Origin: a virus
Length of the DNA stretch: 40,213 bases
IMG/VR virus record: IMGVR_UViG_3300034284_002123
Location: 1-40,213 of that record
Strand: one strand, 5' to 3'
This document shows positions 5,031-21,656 of the stretch, piece after piece. Each line of letters opens with the position of its first letter. Position 1 is the stretch's first letter. A program made the translations under genes and the position numbers. The notes under the pieces are model-generated. The model was not told the origin of the DNA. It saw nothing but the letters and a program-made list of their open reading frames with translations, and did not search any database.

Positions 5031-5298
5031 CCCCCCCCCCCCCTAATAAAAAGACAGGGATCGGGATAAAATCCGGCAAATCGCAGTCATAGCAATGGTT
5101 TAGAGGTTCAAAACATCGGGAATTTTGCGGGATTTTCTTTGGGGATCGGGATTTTCCGAAATCCTGCCCCTTGAGAAATTCCCGCAAAATTCCCGCAAAA
5201 TTCCCGATTTGGCAATCCTGAAACCCTTTCCATTGCAAACGATCTCGCGGATTTTTTCCCGAAATCCCTCTAAAAAGAAAAAACAGTATGGGGGGGGG
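5031..5298. repeat. Origin-like intergenic repeat region bounded by C13 and G9 tracts
   Basis: The 370-base gap between the primase-helicase stop and the next start holds no credible gene. It is bounded by a run of 13 C (5031-5043) and a run of 9 G (5290-5298), which are complementary. Inside are three 11-base tandem units AAAATTCCCGC (about 5176-5206) and an inverted counterpart TCGGGAATTTTGCGGGA near 5116. Palindromic GGAT...ATCC motifs occur at 5061-5075, 5145-5165 and 5249-5269. There is also one plus-strand copy of the repeat found at 3201-3313 (5084-5098). Iteron-like repeats beside a replicative helicase are typical of replication origins or operator arrays. The role is inferred. Confidence 0.65.
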
Positions 5299-7788: not shown

Positions 7789-8121
7789 ATGAGTGACGTC
7801 CCTTATTCAGCTATTGAAGTCGATGGTGTCAGGTACGTTCCTGAACAAGCCGCCAGCCCTGCTGCATTGCCCGCAGGCAACAGAGCTGTTTTTGTCATTG
7901 ATCGCGGTTTTATTTATGCCGGCGACTGGTCTTTGTCTGATGAAGGCTACACATTGGCCAATGCTGTAAATGTGCGCCGATACGAAAGTATTGGCTTTGA
8001 AGGAGTTCTTGCCGATCCAAAATCAAGCAAAGCCACAATTGTATCCATCCCTTATCCCGTAATTGTGCCAGCTGGATCTGTGCTGTTCAAGATACCCGTT
8101 CCTCAAGGGTGGGGGCTGTGA
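7789..8121 (+). CDS. Phage accessory protein, DUF6948-like
   Basis: ATG 7789 gives a 110-residue protein (MSDVPYSAIEVDGVRYVPEQ); the frame is open upstream, but that stretch is antisense to the primase operon. The core FVIDRGFIYAGDWSLSDEG, then LANAVNVRRYES, then a C-terminal block of short strands (VIVPAGSVLFKIPV) recalls the DUF6948 phage family, in which an RG-W/F-x-x-G segment precedes an N-A-x-x-[VI]R segment. The function is unknown. It is the first gene of the rightward early operon, and its TGA overlaps the GTG of the repeat-protein gene (GTGA). From memory, phage proteins of this family can carry GYGDG-type tails, which would make the next gene its detached tail. Confidence 0.6.
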   Translation: MSDVPYSAIEVDGVRYVPEQAASPAALPAGNRAVFVIDRGFIYAGDWSLSDEGYTLANAVNVRRYESIGFEGVLADPKSSKATIVSIPYPVIVPAGSVLFKIPVPQGWGL

Positions 8122-8435
8122 TTGCCTTAAGTCCGGTTGCTAGGCCAGTTGGCTATGGCTATGGCAATGGCTATAGCAATGGCAATGGCGATGGCGATGG
8201 CTATGGCTATGGCAATGGCTATGGCTATGGCGATGGCGATGGCTATGGCAATGGCAATGGCGATGGCTATGGCAATGGCTATGGCGATGGCTATGGCGAT
8301 GGCTATGGCAATGGCGATGGCGATGGCTATGGCACTGGCTATGGCAATGGCAATGGCGATGGCGATGGCTATGGCTATGGCTATGGCGATGGCGATGGCT
8401 ATGGCACTATTTCAACCGTAACCAGAAGGCGATGA
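8118..8435 (+). CDS. Gly-Tyr/Asn/Asp hexamer-repeat protein
   Basis: GTG 8118 overlaps the upstream stop (GTGA), giving 105 residues: a short lead (VIALSPVARPV), then about 42 dipeptide units of Gly plus Tyr, Asn or Asp, ending TISTVTRRR. The units are GGC followed by TAT, AAT or GAT; exceptions are one AGC and two ACT codons (about 8334 and at the tract end, 8406). The next frame is also open throughout and reads as an Ala-Met repeat. I prefer the GYG/GNG/GDG frame because its start is coupled to the upstream gene and such glycine-rich phage proteins are known. No signal peptide, membrane segment or catalytic motif is present. The function is unknown. Confidence 0.6.
   Translation: MIALSPVARPVGYGYGNGYSNGNGDGDGYGYGNGYGYGDGDGYGNGNGDGYGNGYGDGYGDGYGNGDGDGYGTGYGNGNGDGDGYGYGYGDGDGYGTISTVTRRR
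8151..8405 (+). repeat. Hexanucleotide repeat tract GGC(T/A/G)AT, about 42 copies
   Basis: 255 bases of near-perfect six-base units vary only at the fourth base, which is T, A or G and never C apart from two ACT endings. One unit begins AGC. The length is a multiple of three, so gain or loss of units keeps the frame. Such a tract should be prone to length change by slippage. Confidence 0.95.
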
Positions 8436-14160: not shown

Positions 14161-14198
14161 ACCTTTGCCGGGCAGCGTTGCCTGCCCCCATGCCAATT

Positions 14199-14228
14199 CA
14201 CGGCAGATCACGGCAGATCACGGCAGAT
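14199..14228 (+). repeat. Three tandem 10-base repeats CACGGCAGAT
   Basis: CACGGCAGAT occurs three times back to back, about one helical turn per unit, followed by CATGG. It sits 61 bases before the first start (14289) of the rightward recombination operon. Repeats on one DNA face are typical of activator or repressor arrays and of iterons. Confidence 0.75.
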
Positions 14229-14288
14229 CATGGTATGTTCTGGAGACGGGCGCAAACCGCGCTCACTCACCCCTCCACCAATGAATCG

Positions 14289-16180: not shown

Positions 16181-17193
16181 TGACTTCCTCAGCACTTGCA
16201 ACACACGACGACCGCGACGACTTAAGGGTATTTTCCCTGGATGGTTTTGAGATGGCCCAAAGAATGGCCAAGTCTTTGGCATCTTCTACTTTAGTACCAA
16301 AAATATACCAGGGACAGGAAGGCCTGGCCAATTGCCTGATTGCATTGGAGCTTTCAAGCAGGATGAAAATTTCCCCAATGGTGGTCATGCAGAACATGGT
16401 CCCCATTTATGGCCGACCATCATGGAGTAGCCAGTTCTTGATTGGCACGGTAAACGCCTGCGGCAGGTTTTCGCCCTTGCGTTATATCTTCGATAATGAA
16501 GATGAGCCTACTTCCTGCTATTGCGAAGCCAAGGACATTGCCTCTGGCGAAATCTTGAGAGGTGAAAAAATCACCATCGCCATGGCGAAAGCTCAGGGTT
16601 GGTGGAGTCGCAAAGACTCAAAAGGCGCGGAAACCAGCAAGTGGCCCACTATGACTGGCCAAATGTTGCGGTTTCGCGCTGCATCGTGGTGGGTGCGGGT
16701 GTTCTGCCCTGAGATTTCCCTGGGCCTTGGCACACAAGAGGAGGCCATTGATGTTGAAGCTGTGGTCGTTACTGAGGCTTTGGCGCCGGCCTTGCCTGCA
16801 GTCCCCGCACCTCTGACGCACCGCGCCGAGGATGTGGCCGAAGTTGAGGCCCCCGCCCCTGAACCAGAGCCTGCCCCAGGGCCGGAGCCCCAGGGCCCAA
16901 ATTCCGAAGCCACCCCCAGCTCCCCGAATTTGGAGGCCAGCCCCCCGAATTTAGGGCCCAGCTCCCTGACGCTGGAGCCCTCCAGCGGCCTGGAACAGCC
17001 TGCCCCGGCCACCGAACCTGGCACGGCTCAGCGGCTGCCCCAGGGTCGAACCACCGTGGCCGCCGACCCCCAGCCAGCACCCGCGCCTGCCCCGGTCCGC
17101 CGGTCGGGTCCTGCCGCCGCACCTGCCCCGGTCCGCCGGTCGGGTCCTGCCGCCGCACCTGCCGCCGAGGCCCCAATTCCTGGCCTGGATTGA
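16180..17193 (+). CDS. RecT-like single-strand annealing protein with Pro-rich tail
   Basis: The first 190 residues match RecT-family annealing proteins: the FSLDGFEMAQRMAKSLASS start, ISPMVVMQNMVPIYGRPSWS, then SQFLIGTVNACGRFSPLRY and WPTMTGQMLRFRAASWWVRV. These proteins anneal complementary strands for recombination and replication. The last 140 residues are low complexity (Pro, Ala, Glu, Ser), including two identical 12-residue units with VRRSGPAAAPAP at the end. The tail is probably a disordered linker ending IPGLD, which may contact SSB or other partners. It is located between the exonuclease and SSB genes, a standard phage recombination set. Confidence 0.8.
   Translation: MTSSALATHDDRDDLRVFSLDGFEMAQRMAKSLASSTLVPKIYQGQEGLANCLIALELSSRMKISPMVVMQNMVPIYGRPSWSSQFLIGTVNACGRFSPLRYIFDNEDEPTSCYCEAKDIASGEILRGEKITIAMAKAQGWWSRKDSKGAETSKWPTMTGQMLRFRAASWWVRVFCPEISLGLGTQEEAIDVEAVVVTEALAPALPAVPAPLTHRAEDVAEVEAPAPEPEPAPGPEPQGPNSEATPSSPNLEASPPNLGPSSLTLEPSSGLEQPAPATEPGTAQRLPQGRTTVAADPQPAPAPAPVRRSGPAAAPAPVRRSGPAAAPAAEAPIPGLD
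17086..17157 (+). repeat. Two 36-base in-frame tandem repeats in the recT-like gene
   Basis: Units 17086-17121 and 17122-17157 are identical, encoding a duplicated 12-residue segment with VRRSGPAAAPAP. Perfect identity implies a recent duplication. Confidence 0.9.
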
Positions 17194-20006: not shown

Positions 20007-20661
20007 GCCCAACCCAACCCCAGCCCGTGGCCGCTTCATCGCCCTGGAGGGCATCGACGGCTGCGGCAAGACCACCCAGCTGGAGGCCCTGTGCCAATGG
20101 CTGCCTGGCAGCGGCCTGCTGCCCTCTGGCGCCCGCGTGGTTGTGAGCCGTGAGCCTGGCGGCACGGCCCTGGGCCAGGCCCTGCGGGAGCTGCTGCTGC
20201 ACCCTTCCGACGGAACCGCCCCGGTGCCCCGTGCAGAGCTGCTGCTGTATGCGGCCGACCGTGCCCAGCATGTCGAAACCGTCCTCCGGCCGGCGTTGGA
20301 GCGGGGGGATTGGGTGCTATGCGATCGCTTCACCGGATCGACCGCCGCCTATCAGGGCTATGGCAGGGGCTGGCCTGTGGCCCTGCTTGACACGCTGGAA
20401 ACCCTGACCACAGGCGGTCTACAGGTCGATCTCACCCTCTGGCTGGATGTGTCCCTGATCGATTCATGCTGGCGGCGACGGGAGCAACTGGCTGATCGCC
20501 TTGAGGGGGAGGGGGTGGCGTTCCTGGCCCGCGTAGCTCATGGATTTGAAAGCCTGGCCGACCAACGAGACTGGGCCCGCATCGATGCAGGCAAGCCTGT
20601 AGCTGCCGTGACGGCGGACTGTTGCCGCGCCATCGCCTGCCAGTTTGGGGGGCGGGCGTGA
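19999..20661 (+). CDS. tmk: Thymidylate kinase
   Basis: The 220-residue enzyme phosphorylates dTMP to dTDP. It has the P-loop EGIDGCGKTTQLEAL (motif GIDGCGKT at 18-25), REPGGTALGQALRELL, the LLLYAADRAQHVE segment, DRF at 109-111 (VLCDRFTGSTAAYQGYGRG) and an Arg-rich lid near residue 155 (RRREQLADRLEGEG). Wording and length match cyanobacterial Tmk, especially Synechococcus and Cyanobium types, so it was probably taken from such a host. The GTG 19999 start overlaps dcd by eight bases. The stop overlaps the methylase GTG (GTGA). Confidence 0.93.
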   Translation: MDKPNPTPARGRFIALEGIDGCGKTTQLEALCQWLPGSGLLPSGARVVVSREPGGTALGQALRELLLHPSDGTAPVPRAELLLYAADRAQHVETVLRPALERGDWVLCDRFTGSTAAYQGYGRGWPVALLDTLETLTTGGLQVDLTLWLDVSLIDSCWRRREQLADRLEGEGVAFLARVAHGFESLADQRDWARIDAGKPVAAVTADCCRAIACQFGGRA

Positions 20662-21656
20662 CCCTGGCCGCGCCCTTCCCTTACTTTGGCGGCAAGCGCC
20701 GCGCCGCCGCCCGCATCTGGCAGGCCCTCGGCGATCCCGCTGGCTATGTCGAGCCGTTCGCCGGATCGGCTGCTGTGTTGCTGGCCCGGCCTGCATTCAC
20801 CGGCCGCCGGGTTGAGACCCTGAACGATGCGGACGGCTGGCTGGTGAACACCTGGCGCGCCATTCAGCTAAGCCCTGCTGATGTGGCCCGGCACGCATGG
20901 GGGCCCGTGGCCGAGATCGATTACCACGCCCGCTTGGCATGGCTGCAACAGCGCCGCACGCCTGACCTGGTGGCATGGCTTGAGGGCGACCCGGAGGCCC
21001 ATGACGCCAATGCCGCCGGATGGTGGCTCTATGTGGTTGCCTGCGGCATTGGTGATCCGTTTGGCCCTGGGCCGTGGCGGGTGGTGGATGGCCATCTTCG
21101 CAAGCTGCCGCACCTGGGGAATGCAGGGGTGGGCGTGAATCGCAAGCTGCCGCACCTGGGGAATGCAGGGGTGGGCGTGAATCGTGAGCTGCCGCACCTG
21201 GGGGATGCGGGGAGGGGCCAGCTTGAGAGCTACATGGGGCAACTTGCTGATCGCCTCCGCCGGGTCCGCATCACCTGCGGATCGTGGGAGCGGGTGGTGA
21301 AGCCATCGGTTATCCGCAGCGGCGCCGGTGGCGATGGCAGCCGAGCGATCTTCCTGGATCCGCCCTACGCCACATCAGGTGATCTCTACGCCCATGTCGA
21401 TACCGATGTGGCCCTGGCCGTCCGCCAGTGGTGCATTACCGCTCCGCGTGAGCAGCGAATCATCCTGTGTGGTTACGACGCCGAGCATGATGACCTGTTG
21501 GCCCATGGCTGGACTGTTACCGAGGGCAAGGCTGGTGGAGGGGCTGGCTACAGCGCCAATGGCCTGAACGGTCGCCGCGAGCGACTGTGGTTGTCACCCG
21601 CCTGTATTGGCAGTGAGCAACCCGACCTATTCGCCTCAGCGGGGCCGGTGGCATGA
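20658..21656 (+). CDS. dam: DNA adenine methylase (D12 class) with internal repeats
   Basis: GTG 20658 gives 332 residues. FPYFGGK (7-13) and EPFAGSAAVLLA form the AdoMet site of Dam/D12 methyltransferases; DPPYAT (234-239) is the catalytic motif IV. These enzymes methylate adenine N6, often in GATC. Residues 148-189 are three tandem 14-residue units (RKLPHLGNAGVGVN), the third diverged, inserted before the ESYMGQLADRLRRVRITCG segment. The insert may lie in the target-recognition region. The repeats suggest slippage-driven variation. The gene follows tmk and may protect phage DNA from host nucleases (inference). Confidence 0.88.
   Translation: MTLAAPFPYFGGKRRAAARIWQALGDPAGYVEPFAGSAAVLLARPAFTGRRVETLNDADGWLVNTWRAIQLSPADVARHAWGPVAEIDYHARLAWLQQRRTPDLVAWLEGDPEAHDANAAGWWLYVVACGIGDPFGPGPWRVVDGHLRKLPHLGNAGVGVNRKLPHLGNAGVGVNRELPHLGDAGRGQLESYMGQLADRLRRVRITCGSWERVVKPSVIRSGAGGDGSRAIFLDPPYATSGDLYAHVDTDVALAVRQWCITAPREQRIILCGYDAEHDDLLAHGWTVTEGKAGGGAGYSANGLNGRRERLWLSPACIGSEQPDLFASAGPVA
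21099..21224 (+). repeat. Three 42-base tandem repeats in the methylase gene
   Basis: Units 21099-21140 and 21141-21182 are identical; 21183-21224 is a diverged third copy. The 42-base length keeps the reading frame. The identity of the first two units points to recent duplication. Confidence 0.92.

Follow-up and report, generated by a model that had tools for sequence, protein, structure and literature searches.

A rapidly rearranging glycine-repeat gene coupled to a predicted Sm-like gene forms a widespread phage gene pair

A hexamer repeat in an IMG/VR virus record (IMGVR_UViG_3300034284_002123), whose full 40,213 bases we call the window, stays open in two reading frames: one alternates glycine with a variable residue, mostly Tyr, Asn or Asp (Gly-X), and the other alternates alanine with methionine (Ala-Met). 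We asked which of these frames is translated, and what might be the role of a gene of this kind that begins within the stop codon of a neighbour resembling the Pfam family DUF6948. Comparison with relatives leads us to take Gly-X for the coding frame and Ala-Met for a by-product of the repeat; the Gly-X gene, its overlapping start and its near-obligate pairing with a DUF6948-type gene are well supported, and we hold them with high confidence. The window also carries genes for a large terminase, a tape measure protein, exonuclease VIII and RecT-like proteins, and therefore belongs to a tailed phage; BLAST of the region against GenBank phages returned no match. The locus is laid out as follows.

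7789–8121, plus strand: gene for a divergent DUF6948-superfamily protein of 110 residues, predicted to form an Sm-like beta barrel (residues 1–27 at low confidence); identified from relatives, profile links and a structural model
8118–8121, plus strand: GTGA overlap that places the Gly-X start codon within the upstream stop
8118–8435, plus strand: Gly-X gene, 105 residues, from GTG 8118 to TGA 8433–8435; frame, head and tail conserved in relatives
8118–8150, plus strand: head of the Gly-X protein (MIALSPVARPV), which together with the adjoining first Gly of the array shows the subfamily motif RP[VI]G
8151–8405, plus strand: hexamer array (GGC-NAT)n encoding (Gly-Tyr/Asn/Asp)n
8406–8432, plus strand: basic tail TISTVTRRR, related to the subfamily tail T-x-[ST]-x-x-R-x-R-R
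8137–8421, plus strand: Ala-Met frame, open, unconserved and judged a by-product of the repeat

Tandem Repeats Finder delimits the array at 8150–8405 with a period of 6, 42.7 copies and a score of 330, the highest in the window, in agreement with the roughly 42 units counted in an earlier note made from the bare sequence. Its Gly codons are GGC (42) and a single AGC, and its X codons TAT (18), GAT (13), AAT (10) and ACT (1). The open reading frame (ORF) listing begins at an upstream GTG (8109), and the start at 8118 forms the junction with the upstream gene that the earlier note had recognized. Considered in the window alone, the Ala-Met frame has some appeal: the varying base is silent there, and the frame shows just two changes, one Ile and one Leu, which that note had called mild. 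Relatives, however, contradict it. The upstream protein occurs at 80–99% identity in six viral contigs, and in all six a Gly-X ORF comes immediately after it. One of them, L035 (80% identical), has the array GGC-(TAC/GAC/TCC), with Ser (TCC) present and X codons that end in C, so that Ala-Met becomes Ala-Thr/Ala-Pro while Gly-X survives. The same change is found in most relatives, and it is the Gly-X frame whose start codon, head and tail are conserved, leaving an Ala-Met product barely credible. The frame comparison that the earlier note had proposed is thus answered on both sides, Gly-X being conserved and Ala-Met not, and its further argument against Ala-Met, the absence of GCC as an Ala codon, is not needed.

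The two ends of the Gly-X protein and the array between them evolve in different ways. In the window's own subfamily the head motif RP[VI]G, present in 44 loci, appears in 28 nucleotide versions and two peptides, with a ratio of nonsynonymous to synonymous change (pN/pS) of ~0.05, and the tail in 20 nucleotide versions with a ratio of ~0.07, both ratios being lowered by the choice of loci by peptide motif. In unfiltered loci, third codon positions carry 1.75 bits against 1.28 and 1.00 at the other positions of the head, and 1.82 against 1.69 and 1.56 in the tail. The ends vary mostly at third positions with or without the motif filter, and head and tail are therefore conserved as protein. The array turns over fast, bearing out the earlier suggestion that the tract varies in length: next to flanks 99.7–100% identical to the window it is rearranged in one relative (L031) and 22 residues shorter in another (L032), and in a third (L033; flanks 98.5–99.3% identical) its order differs. 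Three more distant relatives (L034, L035 and L036; upstream regions ~79–83% identical) keep a related head and tail around different arrays, and the Pectobacterium phages Ymer and Amona have identical DUF6948 genes and differing arrays. In-frame slippage or recombination of hexamers would turn over array length and X order in this way while retaining the residue mix and both ends.

Two independent samplings show how regularly the genes occur together. Sampling by DNA alone, we took viral contigs with a 60-base GGCNAT run and at least 600 nucleotides upstream, and scored DUF6948-type ORFs with an iterated hidden Markov model (HMM), counting those that end no more than 700 nucleotides upstream on the same strand; among the matches listed, such an ORF precedes 87 of 97 repeat loci, or 80 of 89 after removal of duplicates. 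Sampling by protein alone gave 239 loci—80 canonical viral loci, 80 of the window subfamily and 79 from bacterial and archaeal genomes—of which 214 have a Gly-X run within 900 nucleotides downstream of DUF6948, against 1 of 1,442 control windows. In 12 of the others the contig ends less than 250 nucleotides from the DUF6948 gene, and in 13 the detector found no Gly-X run, several of these 13 having a short or degenerate Gly-X ORF nonetheless. The Gly-X start codon lies 1–20 nucleotides within the upstream gene in 187 of the 214 loci, mostly at −1, −4 or −13, and Gly-X follows DUF6948 in the canonical and window subfamilies alike.

The pair is present in cultured phages (Iodobacter PhiPLPE, Pectobacterium Ymer and its relatives, Vibrio IKEMa6-1 and Chlorobiaceae CV-1-33), which makes the module directly testable; gut phage contigs carry it too, as do contigs that come from many phyla of bacteria and from some archaea. 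Its neighbours include ERF, YqaJ, SSB, RecE, primase/helicase, ribonucleotide reductase and HNH endonuclease genes; we sought a constant third gene beside the pair and found that none recurs among these varied replication and recombination functions, a setting that gives no support to the earlier idea of a surface protein. Many viral contigs (L166, L313 and L288, for example) stop within ~60 nucleotides past the DUF6948 gene, as if assembly breaks at the array, and metagenomes would therefore undercount these genes. A literature search that took in the preprint on VIPR (a phage guide-RNA system considered below), the Ymer genus paper and a low-complexity survey gave no mention of DUF6948 or of the pair, papers elsewhere being possible. 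DUF6948/Gly-X is apparently a very widespread phage gene pair without prior description: a large unexplained module in which a predicted Sm-like protein nearly always sits beside a hypervariable Gly-X partner, across many bacterial phyla and some archaea.

What, then, is the upstream protein? The earlier note had called it DUF6948-like, a description that holds by way of an intermediate: the window protein has no direct Pfam match at E<0.1, but the HMM of its family matches the protein of locus L065 at 3.4e-6, which in turn matches DUF6948 (PF22253) at 4.3e-5, below Pfam's own cut-off. Canonical members of the same gene pair match PF22253 at 1.2e-31 and 4.1e-22, passing that cut-off, which places the window protein in a divergent subfamily of a family whose Pfam entry records no function, fold or partner gene. 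The AlphaFold model of a canonical DUF6948 protein (predicted local distance difference test, pLDDT, 93.4) is a strand–strand–strand–helix–strand–strand barrel with a C-terminal helix, and its top 50 Foldseek matches in the PDB are, in 50 of 50 cases, Sm/LSm proteins or complexes bearing them (probability 0.97–1.00, best E 4.9e-3, target template-modelling score at most 0.69). The window-subfamily model (pLDDT 74.5) likewise matches mainly Sm/LSm entries. A BFVD search ranked DUF6948 proteins first, with some phage proteins named Sm-like lower down. An Sm-like fold is thus strongly predicted for DUF6948: like the Hfq-like RNA-binding Sm/LSm proteins it would have a five-strand small barrel, differing in a helix inserted between strands 3 and 4, another after strand 5, and a lack of sequence similarity. 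Separately, the canonical protein of locus L088 has a weak Pfam match (E 0.003, below cut-off) to CrAss_Ring_3_4, a phage tail ring protein family.

The composition of the Gly-X protein is narrow. Across arrays Gly is encoded mostly by GGC, with GGT, GGG and GGA also occurring and some arrays built on GGT or GGG; the X residues are Tyr, Ser, Asp and Asn, then Phe, Thr and His. Ala encoded by GCY is 14-fold rarer, and Ser encoded by AGY 5-fold commoner, than base frequencies predict. The mix depends on the DUF6948 subfamily, with Tyr 0.46, Asp 0.18, Asn 0.14 and Ser 0.14 in the window subfamily and Ser 0.36, Tyr 0.25–0.27 and Asp 0.20–0.22 in the canonical one. Aromatic residues among Gly, Ser, Asn and Asp are the sticker–spacer composition of phase-separating low-complexity proteins, and phase separation, which the earlier note had raised, would fit. 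RNA-granule proteins with low-complexity, prion-like domains include FUS, hnRNPA1 and, through its tail, LSm4. Gly-X resembles such domains in its Gly content, among which Tyr and small polar residues recur at regular intervals, in its RNA-binding-type partner and, in the window subfamily, in its basic tail; it differs in its strict alternation, derived from hexamer repeats, and in being a separate gene and not the tail of an RNA-binding protein.

On these grounds we tentatively propose, at somewhat less than even confidence in the whole, that the translationally coupled genes specify an RNA–protein assembly. The DUF6948 protein would oligomerize and bind RNA as Sm/LSm proteins do, the Gly-(Tyr/Ser/Asp/Asn) chain would be its disordered, low-complexity, multivalent partner, and together, early in infection, they would assemble into a condensate-like body that would shield the RNA of the phage or tie up that of the host. 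If so, phages would achieve with a minimal set of two genes what Sm/LSm proteins bearing low-complexity tails do in eukaryotes. Several points weigh against the proposal. Aligned directly by hhalign, the profiles of the window subfamily and of canonical DUF6948 match weakly (probability 16.6%, E 0.0015), and the link between them is therefore carried by intermediates, the shared predicted fold and synteny; the Foldseek E-values are about 5e-3 or weaker; and DUF6948 profiles find no match among PDB sequences, the Sm1 and Sm2 motifs not being aligned residue by residue, so that the Sm-like assignment derives from predicted structure. Translation of Gly-X is predicted from sequence comparison, and RNA binding, ring formation and contact between the two proteins are conjectural. 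Lastly, a preference for GGC at any GC content is unexplained by protein selection alone.

That preference opens the way to a different account, in which the array acts mainly as RNA: the Sm-like protein would bind the (GGY-NN-Y)n of the message, which would serve as scaffold or guide, with Gly-X translation secondary or a second function. Besides the RNA-binding type of the partner's predicted fold, several nucleotide-level signals speak for it. Variation within arrays is 0.46 and 0.40 at the amino-acid-changing X bases (NN) and 0.08 and 0.12 at the near-fixed wobble bases, a contrast that rapid homogenization by slippage together with selection for the residue mix could also produce. GGC or GGT make up 95% of array Gly codons but 61% of those in long ORFs nearby, and they prevail even in AT-rich loci that otherwise use GGA most; the third base of X tracks genome GC (rho 0.45) whereas that of Gly hardly does (rho 0.13). 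Dominant Gly/X codon combinations are GGC/NNC (130 loci), GGC/NNT (53), GGT/NNC (19), GGT/NNT (0) and GGG/NNC (4), those with poor RNA self-pairing being absent except in one short array (Fisher p 0.004 for the C/T table, the loci being non-independent), and the window array folds as RNA with a z of −12. The GGY/NN pattern also resembles the vrRNAs of VIPR. The GGC bias might stem from RNA binding, from RNA structure, from a greater ease of expansion in repeats that form hairpins, or from a tendency of low-complexity regions in general to use GGC (PMC6821194). On the other side, the conservation of head, tail and start codon is that of a protein, NN is confined to a few amino-acid-compatible pairs, unlike a free guide, and GGG-based arrays exist. 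Guide–target searches came back empty: skip rules 0–4 across 2.7 Mb of loci gave no excess over shuffles, and an exact 1-nucleotide skip gave no exact match in a viral collection, both tests being limited, in database and in the use of one exact pattern. We regard a mainly RNA role as unlikely, if worth keeping in view.

Array turnover can be read in two further ways. In one, Gly-X would be a hypervariable, fast-evolving decoy or inhibitor aimed at a host factor, for instance a protein involved in defence or RNA handling, and the Sm-like protein would carry or assist it. Array differences beside identical flanks would suit such a role, as would the accessory character of the pair and its place in early regions; yet PADLOC lists no related family, and the narrow X set and conserved ends are no less expected of a generic partner than of a protein that binds one specific target, which makes a decoy a rather improbable choice. 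Free variation of length and order among near-identical phages, and the existence of a few short or degenerate arrays, might instead mean that the array is largely neutral, an insert or spacer prone to slippage within a small accessory gene, and that only the ends and DUF6948 matter. Drift, however, should have yielded stops, frameshifts and other residues, whereas Gly-X of narrow composition is kept in 214 of 239 loci over many phyla, and we find neutrality harder still to credit.

The likeness to VIPR deserves closer comparison. In that system, phages encode guide RNAs of the form (YNNGG)n, to which a RAMP protein binds (PMC13142463, preprint 2026). Both are phage-encoded arrays with a constant GGY and a varying NN beside a small RNA-binding-type protein. 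VIPR, however, repeats pentamers in non-coding RNA, with NN freely varying and a RAMP protein of ~20 kDa (PMC13142463), whereas the present module has hexamers (period 6) inside a conserved ORF with an overlapping start, NN restricted by residue and a partner predicted to be Sm-like rather than of the RAMP family. In SUSP1, taken as a control, we located a YNNGG pentamer array and a candidate Vipr gene, and neither this candidate nor that for Vap showed similarity to the DUF6948 profiles. Membership of VIPR was rejected on period, protein family and coding status. The shared GGY/NN pattern may still be worth attention at the RNA level. An array working on two levels, translated into the multivalent Gly-X partner and, as RNA, offering a constant GGY to the Sm-like protein while NN varies, would be an Sm-based counterpart of VIPR inside an ORF, an idea we rate as a long shot, on a par with the decoy. 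Should the RNA of the repeat prove important in its own right, VIPR would be joined by a second GGY/NN-type repeat system unrelated to it.

Some loci depart from the usual arrangement. In L161 (MW202478.1, 1440–2077) the order is reversed, with the Gly-X ORF upstream of DUF6948 and its DNA reading Ala-Met/Ala-Leu in the DUF6948 frame. A Neisseria gonorrhoeae record (L403, NZ_CP119142.1; 2.17 Mb, filed as a plasmid and chromosome-sized) has the pair at three places. Some gut phages have an additional C-terminal domain on the Gly-X run. In L072, L136, L118, L117, L042, L062, L162, L163 and L404 the run is joined in one protein to a conserved C-terminal domain (FAHG...LTGSC...GR..F) that has no good Pfam match and a weak relative in Tetrasphaera phage TJE1. 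The Gly-X ORF of L078 carries instead a C-terminal fusion to a DUF6745-like domain (E 2.6e-10). PHROGs and PADLOC searches with the pair gave no useful match apart from weak ones to phrog_18306, at positions 56–135 for the Gly-X protein (E 0.49) and 153–231 for canonical DUF6948 (E 6e-5); phrog_18306 may be a natural fusion. A Pfam match of the Gly-X protein to TrAA12 was judged an artefact of composition.

The window contains other repeats. A 42-base unit (21098–21216, 2.9 copies) is repeated in frame (RKLPHLGNAGVGVN) within an ORF at 20622–21656 that resembles a Dam-type DNA adenine methylase, and a 36-base tandem repeat (17081–17163; 2.3 copies, 97% match) lies close to the end of the RecT-like gene. 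Two perfect short tandem repeats, AAATTCCCGCA (2.8 copies, 5176–5206) and TCACGGCAGA (3.3 copies, 14198–14230), are possible iterons or binding sites.
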